Virus record (IMG/VR): IMGVR_UViG_3300020034_000045
Location: 1-38,823 of that record
Origin: a virus
Strand: one strand, 5' to 3'
Length of the DNA stretch: 38,823 bases
Positions within the stretch are counted from its first letter, which is position 1; every line of letters begins with the position of its first letter. A program made the translations under genes and the position numbers. Below the pieces are notes generated by a model. It was given only the letters and a program-made list of their open reading frames with translations, was not told the origin of the DNA and ran no database searches. Positions 4,042-17,677 of the stretch are shown in pieces.

Positions 4042-6065
4042 CATTGCAATTCCGCACGGTCCCTGCGGATATCACCATACTTGGTGATCATGAAGTCTTG
4101 ATCAGGATGACCACAAACCAACGTGCAAGGGATGGACACGTTCTTCCGCCTGAGGCTTGCATTCTCGAGAACTACCGCAAGAATCCAATCCAACTCTGGC
4201 GGCATGACTCCGGCGAGCCCGTTGGGACGAATTCCGAAATCAAAGTCGATAAGTCAGGCATCAACGCCAAGACGACGTTTGCGCCAACAGGCATTTCCGC
4301 GACCGCCGACAAGGTGCGGGGACTGGTAAAGTCAGGCGTCGTTCGGGGTGTCTCTATCGGTTTTGAGATTCTTGAGGCGGAACCCATCGATCCGAAGCGT
4401 CCCTATGCGGGACTCCGCGCCTCAAAATGGGAGCTTTATGAATGCTCGTTTGTATCGGTACCGTCCGATACGAGCGCGATGGTTATGGAGCGCGATGCGG
4501 CGCTCAATGACGAATCTATAGACCTGGACACATTGGCCGCGAAAGGCCGCGAAATTGTCAAGGCTAAAATAACCACCCCTCCCGGTGCCACGGGAACTCG
4601 AAGAACTCCCGTCAGGGCCCAGGAGGGCCACCACAAAATGGCAAAGAAGACTTATGCGGAACAGATTTCCGCGTTCGAAGCGACGCGCCAGGCGAAGTCA
4701 GCGCGTATGGACGAAATCATGAGCGCATCGGCTGAGTCCGGCGAAACGCTGGATGCGGCCCAGAGTGAGGAATACGACGGTCTCGAAGGCGAGTTGAAGC
4801 AGATCGACGAGCACCTGGTTCGGCTGCGGAAGCAGGAAAGGGTCAACGCGGCCAACGCGACCTCTGTCGATGATGCCACCGATCCTGGCCGCGCCAGCAA
4901 TGTCCGGTCCGGCGTCGCTGCCACCGCGAAGGGCCCGCCACTACCCAAGGGCACCGGGTTTACTCGCTTCGCGATCGCGATGGCGCGTTCCCGCGGCGAC
5001 CTGATGCAGGCGCGCGAGATTGCCAAACAGTGGCAGGACACACCTGAAGTCGAACAGGTTGTGAATATGTTCGTGCGTAACGGCACCACTGACATCGAGT
5101 TTGTGACCCGGGCCGGGATCGCGGCGGGCAACACCAGCGATACCACCTGGGCCGCGCCCCTGATCAACTACAACATCATGGCGCAGGAATTCATTGAGTT
5201 CCTTCGTCCGCTGACGATCATCGGCCGGATCCCGAATTTCCGGCGCGTGCCGTTCAACGTCAAAATGCCCCGCGGCACCGGCGGATCAACGGTGAACTGG
5301 GTTGGCGAGGGCGCCCCGAAGCCGGTCAGCGCGCTCGCGTTTGACACCGTGTCGCTGACCTGGGCCAAGGTTGCCGGCATCGTAGTGCTGACCGACGAAC
5401 TGGTGCGGTTTTCGAGCCCGTCCGCTGAAGCGATCGTTCGTGACGACCTTGCAGCCGCCATCGCCGCGTTCCTCGATATTCAGTTCGTGGACCCGACCAA
5501 GGCCGCGGTGACCGGTGTATCGCCGGCCTCGATCACGAACGGCGTTACGCCGATCACCGCGACCGGTGCGACGCCGGATGCGTTGAGGGCCGACCTGAAA
5601 ACGCTGCTTCAGTCCTTCGCCGCGAACAACATCGGACTTACCGGCTCGGTGTTCATCATGACGGCCCAACAGGCAGTCGCGATCTCTCTGATGCGGAATT
5701 CCCTTGGTCAACCGGAGTTCCCCGGCGTGACGATCGAGGGCGGGACGCTGAACGGCATCCCGATCGTGGCATCCGAGGCGGTCCCGGGCACCGGTGGGTC
5801 GCCGACCGATGGCAGCCTGATCATTCTGGCCAAGCCGTCTGAAATCCTGCTTGCCGACGAAGGTGGAGTCACGATCGATGCCAGTCGTGAGGCATCGCTG
5901 CAGATGGATGGGGCTCCGGACAGCCCGGCGACGGCGAGCACGGTTTCTGTTTCGTTGTGGCAGAATAACATGGTTGGGCTCAGATGTGAACGCTGGATTA
6001 ACTGGGTTAAACGCCGCAGTACAGCCGTCGGATTTATTCAATACACCAAGTATGCTGACTCTTGA
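4038..6065 (+). CDS. prohead protease-major capsid protein fusion
   Basis: One 675-residue frame joins two proteins that are usually separate. Residues 1-160 are an S78 (HK97-type) prohead protease: H56 in LWRHDS and S106 in VVRGVSIGF match the catalytic His and Ser, and E135 in WELYECSFVSVP is a candidate third residue. Residues about 201-280 are a charged, coiled-coil delta/scaffold domain. Residues about 310-675 are an HK97-fold major capsid protein, ending with the characteristic VGLRCERWINWVKRR block. In the family the protease removes the delta domain during head maturation. A strong internal ribosome binding site before M201 could also give free capsid protein. ATG 4038 overlaps the previous fragment by 4 nt. 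Confidence 0.92.
   Translation: MTLQFRTVPADITILGDHEVLIRMTTNQRARDGHVLPPEACILENYRKNPIQLWRHDSGEPVGTNSEIKVDKSGINAKTTFAPTGISATADKVRGLVKSGVVRGVSIGFEILEAEPIDPKRPYAGLRASKWELYECSFVSVPSDTSAMVMERDAALNDESIDLDTLAAKGREIVKAKITTPPGATGTRRTPVRAQEGHHKMAKKTYAEQISAFEATRQAKSARMDEIMSASAESGETLDAAQSEEYDGLEGELKQIDEHLVRLRKQERVNAANATSVDDATDPGRASNVRSGVAATAKGPPLPKGTGFTRFAIAMARSRGDLMQAREIAKQWQDTPEVEQVVNMFVRNGTTDIEFVTRAGIAAGNTSDTTWAAPLINYNIMAQEFIEFLRPLTIIGRIPNFRRVPFNVKMPRGTGGSTVNWVGEGAPKPVSALAFDTVSLTWAKVAGIVVLTDELVRFSSPSAEAIVRDDLAAAIAAFLDIQFVDPTKAAVTGVSPASITNGVTPITATGATPDALRADLKTLLQSFAANNIGLTGSVFIMTAQQAVAISLMRNSLGQPEFPGVTIEGGTLNGIPIVASEAVPGTGGSPTDGSLIILAKPSEILLADEGGVTIDASREASLQMDGAPDSPATASTVSVSLWQNNMVGLRCERWINWVKRRSTAVGFIQYTKYADS
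4621..4626 (+). promoter_or_regulatory. internal Shine-Dalgarno for free capsid protein
   Basis: AGGAGG at 4621-4626 lies 11 nt upstream of the in-frame ATG 4638 (Met201, MAKKTYAEQ). That is where a stand-alone capsid precursor with its delta domain would start. Translation from here would give a 475-residue capsid protein, in excess over the fusion. The spacing is slightly long. The motif is the full consensus, much stronger than anything before 4038. Confidence 0.6.
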
Positions 6066-12799: not shown

Positions 12800-13365
12800 T
12801 CAAAGACGAACACGGGATGCAGCGCCGCGTCGCCGGGTACCACGACATCCGAATGGACGGCATGACCGACCTCGTGATTCGCGCCCGTGACGCATCGGTG
12901 TTCGATATTGGCTGCAACCGCGGCCTCGTGGCGTTCGAGATGGCGAACAACGGCGCGCGGCTGGTCCATGGCTGTGACAATTACTTGGAGGGCATCGCGA
13001 CGGCCCGCCATCTGTTCGCGGACATGCGGCACGTCAAAAGCCGGTTCGAGGCGGTTGATTTGACCGAGGGGCCATCAGCGTTGAGCGTGTTCGACGAAAA
13101 GCAATACGACATCGTCCTGATGCTCGCGACGTACCACAAGATCAAGCGCATCATGCCCGCCGATCGCCTGTCCGACCTGATGAAGCACTTCGGCCGGATG
13201 ACCCGGCAATACTTCGGTTGGCGAGCCACATCCGACAAACCGGATGAGAACGACCTGGAAATCGTGGCGCTTGACCGGGACATGGGGGCCGCCGGGCTCG
13301 TCAGAATCCACACCTCCTACATCTCGCGGCAACTAGGCGTTGCCGCAATCTGGGGGCGAAACTAA
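12796..13365 (+). CDS. SAM-dependent methyltransferase, class I
   Basis: A 189-residue methyltransferase. Motif I is VFDIGCNRGLVAFEMANNGA (residues about 35-54), motif II is the acidic VHGCDN at the end of strand 2, and YDIVLMLATYHKI is motif IV. The C terminus has the expected beta strands (VRIHTSYISRQLGVAAIWGR). It overlaps the glycosyltransferase by 4 nt (ATGA) and the next methyltransferase by 1 nt (TAATG). The neighbourhood suggests a sugar or glycolipid substrate rather than DNA, and no DNA-methylase motif is present. Confidence 0.8.
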   Translation: MIKDEHGMQRRVAGYHDIRMDGMTDLVIRARDASVFDIGCNRGLVAFEMANNGARLVHGCDNYLEGIATARHLFADMRHVKSRFEAVDLTEGPSALSVFDEKQYDIVLMLATYHKIKRIMPADRLSDLMKHFGRMTRQYFGWRATSDKPDENDLEIVALDRDMGAAGLVRIHTSYISRQLGVAAIWGRN

Positions 13366-13943
13366 TGCCCTACCGCACCAACGCCCTACAGGTTGATGCC
13401 GAGATCGCGCGCTTCGCCGAAATCCTGAGCGCCGAGGGCGTGCGGTCCTATCTCGAGATCGGGTCGAAATTCGGCGGCTCCCTCTGGCGCGTCGCGACCA
13501 CGCTACCGGCCGGATCGCGCATCGTGTCGGTCGATCTGCCGCGCGGGACGAAGGCCTGGCCCCAAAGCGAGCCGTCGCTGAAAGCGTGCATCGCCGAATT
13601 GTGTCGGCTTGGGTATGACGCTCAGGTAATTTGGGGTGACAGCACAGATCCGGATGTGATCGGGCAGGTTCGGCGGCGCGGCCCGTATGACGCAGCCCTG
13701 ATCGACGGCGATCACCGCCTGCCCGGGCTCACGCTGGACTGGCAAAACTACGGGCCCATGGCGCGGATCGTGGGCTTTCACGACATCTCCTGGCGTCGCG
13801 CACCGGAGTGGGTCGGGACGCGGATCGACGTTCCGGAATGGTGGAACGAACACAAGTCCGCCTATCGCCATGAGGAAATCAGGTTGTGCCCGACCGGGAA
13901 AAATAACGGGATCGGCGTTCTTTATTTTGGAGATAAGCTGTGA
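13365..13943 (+). CDS. SAM-dependent methyltransferase, CmcI/Methyltransf_24-like
   Basis: A second, unrelated class I methyltransferase of 192 residues. YLEIGSKFGGSLWRVATTLP is motif I, RIVSVDLPRG strand 2, and YDAALIDGDHRLPGLTLDWQ the IDGDHxxxxxxxDW block typical of CmcI/Methyltransf_24 enzymes. GFHDISW follows as a probable metal-binding or catalytic loop. Such enzymes commonly O-methylate small molecules or sugars. It overlaps its neighbours by 1 nt (TAATG) and 4 nt (GTGA). Fold confident, substrate unknown. Confidence 0.78.
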   Translation: MPYRTNALQVDAEIARFAEILSAEGVRSYLEIGSKFGGSLWRVATTLPAGSRIVSVDLPRGTKAWPQSEPSLKACIAELCRLGYDAQVIWGDSTDPDVIGQVRRRGPYDAALIDGDHRLPGLTLDWQNYGPMARIVGFHDISWRRAPEWVGTRIDVPEWWNEHKSAYRHEEIRLCPTGKNNGIGVLYFGDKL

Positions 13944-14233
13944 CGATGATCATGCAGGTTGATACTTACGATGATTTCAAGGTTTTGGTGAACGAGATGA
14001 GTTGTCGGAAAACGCGAACCGTAATGTATGCTCAAGGCGGCTGCATTCTGGCGGCTTTCATTGGCGATAAGATGATCCAGGTCAATCCTTACAACATAGA
14101 GACTATGAACGGCGGTAATGAGCCGACTCAATTGGTTACCGACTTTCCTGAGCGAGTTGTAGTGTCTTTCCGCCCTTTGTTTTGGTTAAGCACGGACGCG
14201 TCAGGACTGACCGGAGGTCCGGCGACTTGGTGA
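13940..14233 (+). CDS. hypothetical protein, 97 aa
   Basis: A small alpha/beta protein of no recognised family, with beta strands such as TRTVMYAQGGCILAAFIGDK and a Trp-containing C terminus. GTG 13940 overlaps the previous stop (GTGA); in-frame ATGs follow at 13946 and 13952. It shares a base with the next start (TGATG). From about here to 16620 the sequence looks richer in A+T than the flanks, consistent with recent acquisition together with the endonuclease. Confidence 0.55.
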   Translation: MTMIMQVDTYDDFKVLVNEMSCRKTRTVMYAQGGCILAAFIGDKMIQVNPYNIETMNGGNEPTQLVTDFPERVVVSFRPLFWLSTDASGLTGGPATW

Positions 14234-14886
14234 TGCACGCCCCCGCCAGGGAAGCGCTTATCGGTGAACTTGAGCATTATGTCTCTCGAATTGCCTGCAT
14301 GCGAGCAACCCTGGACATCGTTGACCGCCTGGCCGCCGACGGTATCTCGGGTGATTTTGTAGAATGTGGCGTTCTTCGCGGCGGCCATATGCTTCTGTCT
14401 AAGGTCTACATTGAGCGGGCGGGGTTACCTTCCAGGCGGTATTGGCTGTTCGATACCTTCGATGGAATGCCGGAGCCCGGACCTCTGGACGTGAAGCACA
14501 ACGGCGAACACGCCTCCGTCAGTAAGACGAAAAAAGGTCCCGACTGGTGCAGAGCTACGCTGGACACCGTAAGGGATAATTTTGACAAACATTCGACGCT
14601 CGACGATTCGGTGGTGTTCGTAAAAGGGATGGTCGAAACAACACTCAATGAGTCGGGCCGGGATATTCCCGAGCGGATCGCTTTCCTTCGTCTGGATACG
14701 GATTTCTATGCGTCGACGAAAGCTGAGATGGATGTGCTTTATCCGCGCCTTGTTCCTGGTGGCATACTCGTAGTTGATGACTATGGATTTTGGCGCGGTT
14801 CCAAGATAGCCATTGACGAGTATTTTGGTTTTGCGCCGGAATTCGAGATGATTGATTTTTCGGCAAGAATGCTGGTAAAGCGATAA
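14233..14886 (+). CDS. TylF/MycF-family O-methyltransferase
   Basis: A 217-residue protein of the macrocin O-methyltransferase (TylF) family, metal-dependent enzymes that methylate sugar hydroxyls. GDFVECGVLRGGHMLL is the SAM-binding loop (E44-C-G), YWLFDTFDGMPEP the second conserved block, IAFLRLDTDFYASTKAEMDV the metal-binding D155-x-D157 region, and GGILVVDDYGFW (D182-D183) supplies the remaining ligands. All key acidic residues are present. This is the strongest hint that the cassette builds methylated sugars. ATG 14233 overlaps the previous stop by one base; the frame is open upstream to 14182. Confidence 0.88.
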   Translation: MHAPAREALIGELEHYVSRIACMRATLDIVDRLAADGISGDFVECGVLRGGHMLLSKVYIERAGLPSRRYWLFDTFDGMPEPGPLDVKHNGEHASVSKTKKGPDWCRATLDTVRDNFDKHSTLDDSVVFVKGMVETTLNESGRDIPERIAFLRLDTDFYASTKAEMDVLYPRLVPGGILVVDDYGFWRGSKIAIDEYFGFAPEFEMIDFSARMLVKR

Positions 14887-14899
14887 TGCGAACCGTCCC

Positions 14900-15010
14900 A
14901 TGGCGCTCCTGATCTGCACGTTCCTTTGGGGAGACAAATATTCTCCGGAATACGTGAACAGACTGGCGGCTGCACGATACCACAAATACTCGTTGCGTTG
15001 TGCTGAATAA
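14900..15010 (+). pseudogene. truncated glycosyltransferase N terminus
   Basis: ATG 14900 opens a 36-residue frame, MALLICTFLWGDKYSPEYVN and so on, ending at TAA 15008-15010. It aligns by eye with the start of the intact glycosyltransferase at 15978: LLICTFLWGDKYSPEYVNRL against LHISTWIWGEKYGQFYIDRL. It is therefore the left stump of a related gene, cut off shortly before the endonuclease at 15092. The DNA sequences are clearly diverged, so this is not a recent target duplication. It may still be translated. Confidence 0.6.
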
Positions 15011-15024
15011 AATACGATAAAAGC

Positions 15025-15061
15025 GAGCCGCCGACGGCGCTGGAAACACCGCCGGCGGCTC
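15025..15061 (+). other. GC-rich RNA hairpin
   Basis: GAGCCGCCG 15025-15033 pairs perfectly with CGGCGGCTC 15053-15061 around a 19-nt loop that can pair further inside. No T tract follows, so intrinsic termination is doubtful. It lies between the truncated glycosyltransferase stump and the endonuclease, and may damp or insulate endonuclease expression or mark the left edge of the insertion. Confidence 0.5.
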
Positions 15062-15091
15062 TGACCATACGAACCTGGATGATAGGCTGAA

Positions 15092-16009
15092 ATGGCTAAA
15101 CACCCTTTATCAAGAAACGCGCCTGGATTCTATCTCTATGAAATCCTGGTGGGCGGCATAGTCCGATATATCGGCAAGGGATGCGGCGAACGAGCGAAGG
15201 AACATGAGAGGACCGCCCGTCGGATAATTGAATTGCGTAAGGCCGGAAAGTCCGTCAAAACATCGCGATTCTATAATCGATTGGCGAAGGCAATTTCCGC
15301 CGGTTCTTCGATTAAGATAGCGATCCGTGGAATATGGGACGTTGAGACCGTCGCGAAAGATGAAGAGCGGAAAGCTATAGCTTCCGCCCCGAGAAACCAA
15401 TTGTGGAATACATTACCTGGAGGTGAAGGTTTCGACTCCGCCTTTATTAAAAAGCTTTGGAATGACCCAGCCTATCGAGACAAAATGACCTTGTCGTCAA
15501 GGACCCGTTGGACGAACCCGGAATATAGAGCGGCCATGACCGCGGTCATGAATTCTCCAGAGCGTCGAATTCACATGAGCCAAGTTTTGACGGAGGCGCT
15601 TTCTGATCCGGCGGTCAGAGGTAAGATGTCGGCCAGAAAGGTCGAGGCTTGGAAAATCGCGTCAGGGCGAAAAAGAATGATGAACGGCTTGGCGCTCTCT
15701 CACGCTAATCCGAAGAACCGAGAAAGATCGCGGCGCCGACTCATTGAAATGTGGGCCGACCCGGAGCGTCGCGCGGCCAGTGTCGCGAAATTCAGGAAGT
15801 TTTACTCATCCCCCGAAGGTCGCGCTGCGCACGCAAAACGAAGATCAGACGAACAAACGCCGGAGCGTCGTCAAAAGACCAGTGAACATCAAAAGAAGTT
15901 GTGGAGTGATCCGATATATAAGGAAGCCCAGCTTTCCGCGCGTGCTCAGGCAAAAGCAATGAAACAGAGGCTTGCGAATGCTGCACATATCAACGTGGAT
16001 TTGGGGTGA
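15092..16009 (+). CDS. GIY-YIG homing endonuclease (second copy)
   Basis: A 305-residue GIY-YIG endonuclease, related in design but not closely similar to the one at 6204. GFYLYEI (12-18) and RYIGKG (25-30) are the split motif, with R34, E91 and N106 (LWNTLPGGEGF) as conserved residues. Residues 115-295 are basic repeats with (W/S)xDP(E/A)xR turns: WNDPAYRDKM, WTNPEYRAAM, LSDPAVRGKM, WADPERRAAS, WSDPIYKEAQ. They resemble NUMOD3-like DNA-binding units. Its last 11 codons are the first codons of the next glycosyltransferase in another frame; that gene supplies its stop. The sequence looks more A+T-rich than the flanks. Confidence 0.85.
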   Translation: MAKHPLSRNAPGFYLYEILVGGIVRYIGKGCGERAKEHERTARRIIELRKAGKSVKTSRFYNRLAKAISAGSSIKIAIRGIWDVETVAKDEERKAIASAPRNQLWNTLPGGEGFDSAFIKKLWNDPAYRDKMTLSSRTRWTNPEYRAAMTAVMNSPERRIHMSQVLTEALSDPAVRGKMSARKVEAWKIASGRKRMMNGLALSHANPKNRERSRRRLIEMWADPERRAASVAKFRKFYSSPEGRAAHAKRRSDEQTPERRQKTSEHQKKLWSDPIYKEAQLSARAQAKAMKQRLANAAHINVDLG

Positions 16010-16619
16010 GAAGTATGGGCAGTTCTATATCGACCGACTAATTGCTGGCGTTAGTCGAAATGTGCGACAGCCACACACTTTCCATGTCTTCGAGCCGGAA
16101 CCTGCCGACAAATATCTTACGGATATGCCTGGATGCCTGCCGCGCTTACGGAGTTGGTCTCCGTCTTGGCAAAAGAAGCATGGAATTGAACGCGGAGAAC
16201 GTCTGGTGACGTTGGATCTGGATTTGATTGTGACGGGTCCGCTTGATGACTTATTCGACCGCCCAGAACCGTTTCTAATCCTTCTTGGAGCAAATGCTTC
16301 AAATAAGAATCCATACAACGGTTCAGTGCAGATGTTACGCGCTGGATATCGCCCGGATGTTTGGTCAGACTTCAACGTCGTAACGTTACAGCAAAGTCCT
16401 AAGCATGAATTTTATGACGACCAGGGTTGGTTGTGGTATCGAATCCCGAATGTGGCAGGGTGGACGGTCGGCGCCGCGTCAGGTGTTTACGCCTTCAAGA
16501 AACCGGGTTGGCCAAAGGGTGACGCGTTGCCTGTTGGCGCTCGACTGGTAGCCTTCCCTGGGCACCGCGATCCTTCGCAATTCACGAATATACCGTGGAT
16601 TGCGGAGCACTGGCGTTGA
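15978..16619 (+). CDS. glycosyltransferase, GT8-like (GT-A fold)
   Basis: A 213-residue protein. The N terminus MLHISTWIWGEKYGQFYIDR is the first nucleotide-sugar strand. RLVTLDLDLIVTGPLDDLFD holds the DxD motif in the 'vylDlDvlv.g.l..lf' setting of GT8-type enzymes, and PGHRDPSQF near the C terminus resembles the closing metal-ligand block. ATG 15978 is preceded by GAGG at 15967-15970, which lies inside the endonuclease gene, so the two overlap by 32 nt. The TGA overlaps a TTG start of the next gene. A related truncated start lies upstream of the endonuclease. Confidence 0.7.
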   Translation: MLHISTWIWGEKYGQFYIDRLIAGVSRNVRQPHTFHVFEPEPADKYLTDMPGCLPRLRSWSPSWQKKHGIERGERLVTLDLDLIVTGPLDDLFDRPEPFLILLGANASNKNPYNGSVQMLRAGYRPDVWSDFNVVTLQQSPKHEFYDDQGWLWYRIPNVAGWTVGAASGVYAFKKPGWPKGDALPVGARLVAFPGHRDPSQFTNIPWIAEHWR

Positions 16620-17677
16620 TCGATCCGGCTTGTGTTGTTTTCTTCATTCCGGGCCATCTGAAAAAGTTCAAGCTGGATCTGTTCAATCGGATCGGATCGT
16701 CAATCGAAAGGGTTGGCGGACGCGTTGTTCGTGGTGATTTTGGTGAGTTGGCTAAGGCTTCGCTCGATCGGACGCCAATTGTCGGATGCACGCCAGAACT
16801 GAGGCCGTTGATCGACGAGTGGATATCCGAAAGGCGGGGCTGGATATATTGGGACCGCGGCTATGCGCGCCGGGTGTTCGCAACCTGGTTGCCGCGCGGA
16901 GAGAATGGCGGGCACTACCGTTTCCACGTCAACAGCTATCAGCTTCAGGTAATTCGCAACTTTCCCGACGACCGCTGGCGAGCACTAAAAACCGACGTCA
17001 CCCCCTGGCGCAAGAACGGCAGGCACATCGTCATCGCGGCGCCGACCAAAACGTACTCCGCGTTCCACCGGATCGAAGGCTGGACGGACCGCACCATCGC
17101 CGCTCTTGCGCTCGTGACGGATCGCCAGATCGTAATCCGCGACAAGGAAAGTCGGCGACCACTACAGGCTGACCTCGAAGGCGCGCACGCTTTGGTCGCG
17201 CACGGCTCCATCGCCGCAGTTGAGGCCGCGATCTGCGGGTGTCCCGTATTCGTTCATCCCGACAGCGCGGCGTCGCTGATTGGCCTGACTGACCTGGCGC
17301 GGATCGAGGCGCCAATTTGTCCGGATAGACAAACATGGCTCAACGCCCTGGCTTACAGTCAGTTCAACGAATCCGAACTTGTCGACGGAACCCCGAAAAC
17401 AATGGATGCGCGCCTGGGCCGAGCGTCACCTTGTAAAATAGAAGTGTTGGAGCGTGACAATGCAAGTAATTGGCGCCGTCCTGGTTGCGACAACGATATT
17501 GTCAGGTGTTGGCATCGTGCTGTTGCGCGTCGTCGGGGTGCATTAGGTCGTCGTCAGGCTCGTAGCGCCGCGGTGACGTCACCAACGAAGGGATCCAGCG
17601 ATGACCCTCCGCGCCATCCCGAGGGCCTTCGTTACAAAAGCGATCCCGCGTGGCGGGGTGGTGCCGCCATCCACTGA
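16616..17677 (+). CDS. GT-B glycosyltransferase with probable C-terminal frameshift
   Basis: The start TTG 16616 (MIDPACVVFFIPGH) overlaps the previous stop. About 257 residues read as a GT-B/capsule-type glycosyltransferase: HALVAHGSIAAVEAAICGCP followed by VFVHPDSAASLIGLTDLARI resembles the donor-binding region of KpsC/KpsS- and GT9-like enzymes. After ELVDGT (17381-17392) the frame becomes Arg-rich, unlike its neighbours, and overruns two small genes to 17677. One base less in CCCC (17391-17394) or AAAA (17396-17399) would give a natural end, KQWMRAWAERHLVK, stopping at TAG 17439-17441, just before the next ribosome binding site. The real product therefore probably ends at 17441. Confidence 0.65.
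   Translation: MIDPACVVFFIPGHLKKFKLDLFNRIGSSIERVGGRVVRGDFGELAKASLDRTPIVGCTPELRPLIDEWISERRGWIYWDRGYARRVFATWLPRGENGGHYRFHVNSYQLQVIRNFPDDRWRALKTDVTPWRKNGRHIVIAAPTKTYSAFHRIEGWTDRTIAALALVTDRQIVIRDKESRRPLQADLEGAHALVAHGSIAAVEAAICGCPVFVHPDSAASLIGLTDLARIEAPICPDRQTWLNALAYSQFNESELVDGTPKTMDARLGRASPCKIEVLERDNASNWRRPGCDNDIVRCWHRAVARRRGALGRRQARSAAVTSPTKGSSDDPPRHPEGLRYKSDPAWRGGAAIH
17460..17546 (+). CDS. hydrophobic microprotein, 28 aa
   Basis: MQVIGAVLVATTILSGVGIV followed by LLRVVGVH is almost entirely one transmembrane helix. A good Shine-Dalgarno (GGAG 17449-17452) lies 7 nt before ATG 17460. It starts 18 nt after the corrected end of the preceding glycosyltransferase. It is the second single-helix microprotein in the sugar cassette. 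A membrane tether or small regulator is possible; no family recognised. Confidence 0.45.
   Translation: MQVIGAVLVATTILSGVGIVLLRVVGVH
17572..17583. repeat. 12-bp perfect palindrome
   Basis: GGTGACGTCACC is a perfect inverted repeat in the 54-nt gap before the 62-aa gene. It could be a protein-binding site or a short RNA stem. It may also be chance in G+C-rich DNA. Confidence 0.3.

Follow-up and report, generated by a model that had tools for sequence, protein, structure and literature searches.

Phage genomes often carry homing endonucleases, and what keeps their expression down is, to our knowledge, poorly understood outside the T4-type phages. In that group, T4 I-TevI and segB and Aeh1 mobE use hairpins that sequester the ribosome-binding site (PMC2988022). 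In these T4-type cases leader RNA structure lowers translation of the homing endonuclease, as we propose for the module described here, but the T4-type hairpins were described gene by gene, are tied to late promoters, involve no antisense RNA, and none is shared between endonuclease families. A further case is the EcoRI restriction-modification system (reviewed in PMC3874152), in which a reverse promoter gives rise to an antisense RNA that restrains a DNA endonuclease gene; its architecture is another one, and it has no compact transferable leader. A third system is SymR of E. coli, which represses the synthesis of SymE and loses its −10 element when CATTCT is silently mutated (PMC1891008). 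This CATTCT corresponds to nucleotides 13-18 of symE, and the start of SymR to nucleotide 6. The E. coli SymE/SymR pair (RF01809), with a 77-nt antisense RNA from ORF nucleotide 6 and a −10 at nucleotides 13-18, thus has the geometry predicted for the module across its family; in both, the known or predicted RNA spans the start codon and the 5′ leader, with a 5′ stem from the anti-start-codon sequence followed by a terminator hairpin. The targets differ, that of SymR being an AbrB-fold RNA-acting toxin and that of the module a putative homing endonuclease. Antisense control of toxins and of plasmid replication is known, while such an RNA at homing endonuclease genes appears to be new: in the open-access literature no report was found that connects homing endonucleases with cis-antisense RNAs.

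The locus was found in a 38.8-kb IMG/VR virus record, the whole of which is called the window below. Genes A to J around the endonuclease form a sugar-modification cassette, with a GT9-like gene, three methyltransferases including a TylF type, a glycosyltransferase (GT) and further genes. The core order A-B-C-D-GT-J is common to about 45 viral loci, with D mostly directly against GT, and the window departs from it between D and GT, where a small ORF, a TylF gene, a GT stump and an endonuclease are found. We consider it likely that a free-standing GIY-YIG endonuclease, with its own antisense-RNA control module, invaded this variable GT locus of a tailed phage. The genes concerned are as follows.

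13365..13943, plus strand: gene D, methyltransferase (Methyltransf_24), by Pfam and synteny; last gene before GT in most syntenic phages.
14233..14886, plus strand: gene F, TylF-type O-methyltransferase (Pfam E 6.5e-41), between D and GT.
14900..14974, plus strand: GT stump, codons 1-25 of a glycosyltransferase since lost, by N-terminal GT matches; the frame continues to 15010, and codons 26-36 match no GT.
14975..15012, no strand: spacer from the stump to the endonuclease unit, about 38 nt including the last 11 codons of the frame.
15092..16009, plus strand: putative GIY-YIG endonuclease, 305 aa; nuclease domain spanning roughly residues 10-112, followed by helical NUMOD-like repeats.
15978..16619, plus strand: intact GT, 213 aa, with 32 nt overlapped by the endonuclease.
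16616..17677, plus strand: gene J, the next conserved ORF; the endonuclease stands directly before J in L097, L111 and L176.

The intact GT matches the PHROG 1962 glycosyltransferase (E 3e-6). For the small ORF E (13940-14233), which separates D from the TylF gene, neither Pfam nor PHROG gave a match. In L002 (7073-7738) and L095 (7868-8401) an additional distant GT (24-26% identity) lies within the same cassette, which therefore gains GTs.

The protein encoded at 15092-16009 was called a GIY-YIG endonuclease in the first-pass annotation, and this assignment holds for a GIY-YIG-type nuclease of putative activity, on the basis of invariant catalytic-type residues, the Pfam hits of its relatives and the predicted fold. 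Residues G12-x-Y14, Y26-x-G28, R34, E92 and N106 are invariant in four relatives, and the relatives L097 and L111 score above the Pfam cutoff for LEM-3_GIY-YIG (PF22945). The alignment profile matches PDB 9u75 (E 0.006), and the predicted fold matches the same GIY-YIG nuclease in Foldseek (probability 1.0, E 0.02). The window protein has catalytic-type residues in common with the LEM-3-type nucleases (PF22945), but it has diverged from them below detection and its C-terminus is a NUMOD-like repeat array. It gave no GIY-YIG Pfam hit; its sole Pfam match, to GerD (E 3e-9) at the start of the repeat tail, is most likely an artefact of repetitive or coiled-coil sequence. A single-sequence search of phages and viral contigs for related endonuclease loci returned none, and the relatives came only via synteny and leader. 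That the endonuclease takes its last codons and stop from the second gene was confirmed, with the stop (16007-16009) inside the GT gene starting at 15978 and an overlap of 32 nt.

Upstream of the endonuclease, a 36-codon frame is present at 14900-15010, which had been reported to resemble the start of the intact GT. BLASTP bears this out (11/23 identical, E = 1e-6), and against the GT N-termini of syntenic phages identity reaches at most 68% over 25 codons (E ~1e-7). W10, G11, K13 and Y14 of the stump are present in the GTs of 26/26 relatives, whereas codons 26-30 agree in 0. Given this sharp loss of match at codon 26, the GT-derived part is 25 codons and not 36. The start codon of the stump occupies the position of the GT start in the relatives, and L125 has the order D-F-GT, with gene F placed as in the window; we conclude that a GT once stood after gene F here.

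Endonuclease relatives (30-36% identity) were found only in the same GT locus. In L097, L111 and L176 the endonuclease lies between an intact GT and J, its end adjoining or overlapping the start of J; in a fourth relative, L093, it follows the GT and the contig end cuts the locus. Altogether the endonuclease is carried by 4 of about 45 syntenic loci and by the window, and its insertion points vary. Since an intact GT precedes the same endonuclease in three relatives and the stump is absent from the approximately 45 syntenic viral loci, the stump is the remnant of a displaced GT, which would formerly have preceded the unit. No endonuclease-free relative carries stump and intact GT side by side, and no intermediate on the path from intact GT to stump was seen among the relatives. 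The 38-nt spacer had no significant match in any fetched locus, and no C-terminal remnant of the lost GT was found in the window record.

How the GT was truncated can be read in two ways. It is quite possible, though we would not wager on it, that tandem GTs, or the order GT1-endonuclease-J, came first, followed by the gain of a second GT after the endonuclease and then by decay of GT1 through deletion up to the unit. The order GT-endonuclease-J in L097, L111 and L176 would be its starting point, and the additional GTs of L002 and L095 show that such gain takes place at this locus; against it, no relative with the order GT-endonuclease-GT was found, and the 3′ end of the endonuclease is fused to the second GT. 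Somewhat less probable, and in our judgement rather unlikely, is the proposal of the first-pass annotation that a homing endonuclease carried a diverged full-length GT in, left the old gene as a stump and so switched the sugar-modifying allele. Part of it stands: the stump and the intact GT belong to one family and have diverged from each other, the break adjoins the endonuclease unit, and the arrangement named as its refutation, both GT frames side by side in a relative free of the endonuclease, did not turn up. The GT allele has also diverged more than the flanking genes, since the window GT is 52% identical to that of the nearest relative, L086, as against 81-86% for the neighbours C and D, so the GT allele was probably exchanged. 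The transport by homing itself fits less well, as the unit stands before the intact GT in the window, unlike in L097, L111 and L176, where it stands after; a donor in which the endonuclease precedes the GT was not found, neither a target-site duplication nor any other repeat surrounds the unit, and 38 unmatched nt lie at the junction. The accompanying idea of endonuclease-driven antigenic-type switching was not upheld, the variability of the locus being all that speaks for it.

Whichever order of events may apply at the GT locus, the endonuclease, on our preferred reading, arrived with a control module of its own. Comparison of the window with L097 and L111 revealed a conserved hairpin just upstream of the endonuclease start codon, and the reverse strand of the 82 nt between stump and endonuclease matches a family of predicted antisense RNAs of about 75-85 nt. 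This element, which the first-pass annotation does not mention, is the more informative feature of the locus. The predicted elements in the window are as follows.

15013..15097, minus strand: predicted cis-antisense RNA gene; RNA 5′ end at about 15097 (endonuclease codon 2), spanning start codon and Shine-Dalgarno (SD) site and ending at the terminator.
15025..15061, minus strand: intrinsic terminator of the predicted antisense RNA; 17-bp stem with tail GCTTTTATCG, equal to hairpin H1 of the sense leader.
15065..15095, plus strand: start-codon stem, in which CCAT (15065-15068) pairs with ATGG (15092-15095) and encloses the SD hairpin; the stem is also in the antisense RNA.
15106..15111, minus strand: best candidate antisense −10, GATAAA (4/6), in endonuclease codons 5-7, with no good −35.

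A covariance model of 50 leaders, the window copy among them, matches 15013-15096 with 52 bits (E 9e-11). The antisense fold in the window reaches −44.1 kcal/mol with a z of −8.4, compared with −4.3 for the sense strand, and the minus-strand terminator at 15025..15061 is the only one found in 14900-15200. The sense leader also folds, with the start codon sequestered in the predicted mRNA structure. Judged by consensus, the antisense promoter of the window and of its nearest endonuclease relatives is weak (its −10 scores 4/6 at best and a −35 is lacking), so expression there may be low or host-specific.

The hairpin pattern matched 52 viral stretches, most of them followed by endonuclease-like ORFs that are unrelated in sequence and start with ATGGCT; among 31 distinct copies, 29 carry NTGGCT, the start codon lying outside that search pattern. 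A looser pattern, which does fix ATGGCT, was matched in at least 120 stretches of viral contigs and in 114 of bacterial genomes. For the 84 distinct downstream ORFs among the matches listed, the Pfam assignments, which overlap, were HNH_3 (24), HNH (15), HNH_5 (14), AP2 (11), NUMOD3 (9) and GIY-YIG (6), and the 25 most frequent PHROG hits of downstream ORFs were nearly all “HNH endonuclease” or other endonucleases. When 983 kb of loci picked regardless of the module were searched, each of the five full-length model matches lay ahead of an endonuclease ORF; among these matches L093 and L108 were new. Leader identity was 0.69 for homologous protein pairs and 0.67 for non-homologous ones, and the leaders of L140 (GIY-YIG) and L167 (HNH) share 87% identity, which extends through codon 6 and then stops. 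Because the module is common to HNH and GIY-YIG genes of unrelated sequence, it would have been passed between the endonucleases or kept as a common control cassette.

Among named phages, Rhizobium phage RHph_X2_25 carries the module at 54648-54728 of MW960032, with a “putative homing endonuclease” that follows the major capsid gene, and Rhizobium phage RHph_N3_2, accession MN988526, carries it at two HNH genes, with one further copy before a very short ORF. In the paralogous RHph_N3_2 copies leader and ORF diverge equally (0.71 each), leaving an avoidance of cross-talk unsupported in this case. The module was also found in Rhizobium phages RHph_Y25 and RHph_N2, Synechococcus phage Yong-M3-232 and Acinetobacter phage Acba_1. 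At least two copies are present in L201, L227, L233, L239 and L370 and in genomes G011, G005 and G007, often 1.5-21 kb apart, which is the expectation for prophages with several endonucleases. The contig L140, with its module-bearing GIY-YIG endonuclease, also contains an Rfam int-alpA RNA above the gathering score (5123-5189). In the bacterial stretches L296-L409 the module precedes many small unrelated ORFs, such as those of Sphingomonadales (MATDAPITGA...), Methylobacterium (MAIHHPTPPLGGG...) and Streptomyces (MAELHPSAP...); these small ORFs may be prophage genes or represent type I toxin-antitoxin loci.

Most of the leaders scanned gave no Rfam hit at all, and no Rfam family was matched at threshold. 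The matches below the gathering score centre on one leader, L183, which was hit by PtaRNA1 (RF01811) on the minus strand with E 1.9e-6, by the R1162-like plasmid antisense RNA (RF00043) with E 2e-5, including CUAACCA...SD...AUGGCU, and by symR at a sub-threshold score; the window itself scores 22 bits against R1162 (E 0.047, below the gathering score). In the reverse direction, the module covariance model does not recover symR at E 1 or better. The module spans SD and start codon from the opposite strand and has a stable predicted fold that ends in an intrinsic terminator, with a reverse promoter that is evident across the family and weak in the window; we suggest that it may work like the SymR/PtaRNA1 class, but as its Rfam matches stay sub-threshold we do not file it in those Rfam families. 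The sub-threshold matches on L183, with R1162 on the plus strand and the other two on the minus strand, prompted a test of the strand.

Across the 50 leaders, standard pairs fill 93.5% of cells, compared with 82.5% for shuffled and 29-42% for slid partners, and there are 61 double-change cells versus 15. The search patterns had fixed GAGCC, GGCTC, ACC and often ATGGCT, and with them five pairs of the outer stem and the stem at the start codon; the independent evidence therefore consists of the columns that they did not set and of the pattern-free copies. Outer-stem pairs 6-9, which were free of the search patterns, pair far above shuffles and covary strongly, and the pattern-free copies found by the model vary even at the “fixed” pairs and largely still pair. 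Three of these copies show compensatory change in the start-codon stem, where CCA/UGG is replaced by ACA/UGU in L239 and in Synechococcus phage Yong-M3-232, and by UCA/UGA in Acinetobacter phage Acba_1. The bias in wobble pairs, an 8:1 excess on the antisense side, points to that strand: G-U makes up 17% of pairs in the antisense fold and 3.5% in the sense fold, fixed stem columns contain 85 A-C (antisense G-U) against 10 G-U, and bacterial copies show the same bias (84 vs 14). Consistent with this, the antisense fold is the more stable one in 110/116 leaders, and the conserved TAAAATAAGC before hairpin H1 is the U-rich terminator tail read backwards.

On the reverse strand, TATAAT-like hexamers (at least 5/6) occur at ORF nucleotides 13-14 in 31/108 units, with 0-2 per position elsewhere, and TTGACA-like hexamers peak at nucleotides 36-37, which corresponds to a 17-bp spacer. 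The promoter hexamers are thus fixed at ORF nucleotides 13-19 and 36-42 across the family, and a joint promoter score of at least 8/12 is reached by 32/103 units versus 0-6 in shifted windows. From these positions the RNA start is predicted at ORF nucleotide ~6.

It is improbable, in our view, that the structure acts in the mRNA only, with leader hairpins hiding the SD site and start codon as in the T4 homing endonucleases and TAAAAT serving as a sense −10. The sense leader does fold with SD and start codon paired, and I-TevI, segB and Aeh1 mobE offer the precedent of hairpins over the ribosome-binding site (PMC2988022). But the wobble bias and the folding energies speak for the antisense strand, the sense strand lacks a conserved −35, the T4 hairpins have not been presented as one family in common, and the reverse promoter hexamers at fixed ORF positions with their 17-bp spacer have no sense-strand reason. 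Three related readings were dropped: a sense promoter plus leader in TAAAATAAGC, given the lack of a conserved −35 and the strand tests; a riboswitch-like exchange of strands in which H1 and the start codon compete, which the predicted antisense promoter makes needless; and the UAA/UGA after H1 as a stop for translational coupling, as hairpin length is not constant modulo 3.

On our reading the antisense RNA is the probable acting molecule. What the computations show is where the stump comes from and, for the module, how far it is conserved, on which strand it lies, how it folds and where its promoter sits across the family; transcription, the block of translation, the burst on entry and the sequence of events at the GT are inferred. 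A reverse promoter within the first ~14 endonuclease codons would start an RNA of about 85 nt at codon 2, which would run leftward across the start codon and SD site and stop at the hairpin terminator beside the GT stump. Being complementary to the leader and spanning SD and start codon, this RNA should block translation of the endonuclease by pairing with its mRNA leader, and the duplex would be exposed to decay, as for SymR/symE. Because this RNA would have its source in the element, cells in which the element is already present should be silenced and make little endonuclease, whereas a newly infected cell, which lacks the RNA, should see a burst.

More tentatively, a transferable antisense cassette, akin in design to type I antitoxins and to the copy-control RNAs of plasmids, might be the common control of many unrelated phage homing endonucleases, giving a burst in the naive cell and silence afterwards, with fast-changing loops setting mutual silencing. 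If true, a single antisense module before HNH and GIY-YIG genes would explain restraint for many homing endonucleases, and the recurrent N-terminus MA(D/E)xI(I/V/L) would be explained by its codons holding the reverse promoter. The module would then be a searchable signature for such endonuclease genes. It would tie selfish nucleases to toxin-antitoxin and plasmid regulation and turn the burst on entry into a directly testable idea.

As to the stump, it is very improbable that it is a short gene with a function of its own or one exon of a GT split by an intron, since, for all that its start codon is placed as in the relatives' GTs, Rfam gives no intron, the downstream GT is complete with no GT C-terminal remnant in the contig, and the frame ends in non-homologous codons. 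A group I/II intron at the locus was rejected on the same lack of an Rfam hit. Directly ahead of the stump, at 14886-14910 of the window, CGTCCCATGGCGCTC resembles the 3′ end of the relatives' D gene where it overlaps the GT start (CGTCCTGTGGCGCTC in L102), and is perhaps the relic of an earlier D-GT junction that genes E and F displaced.
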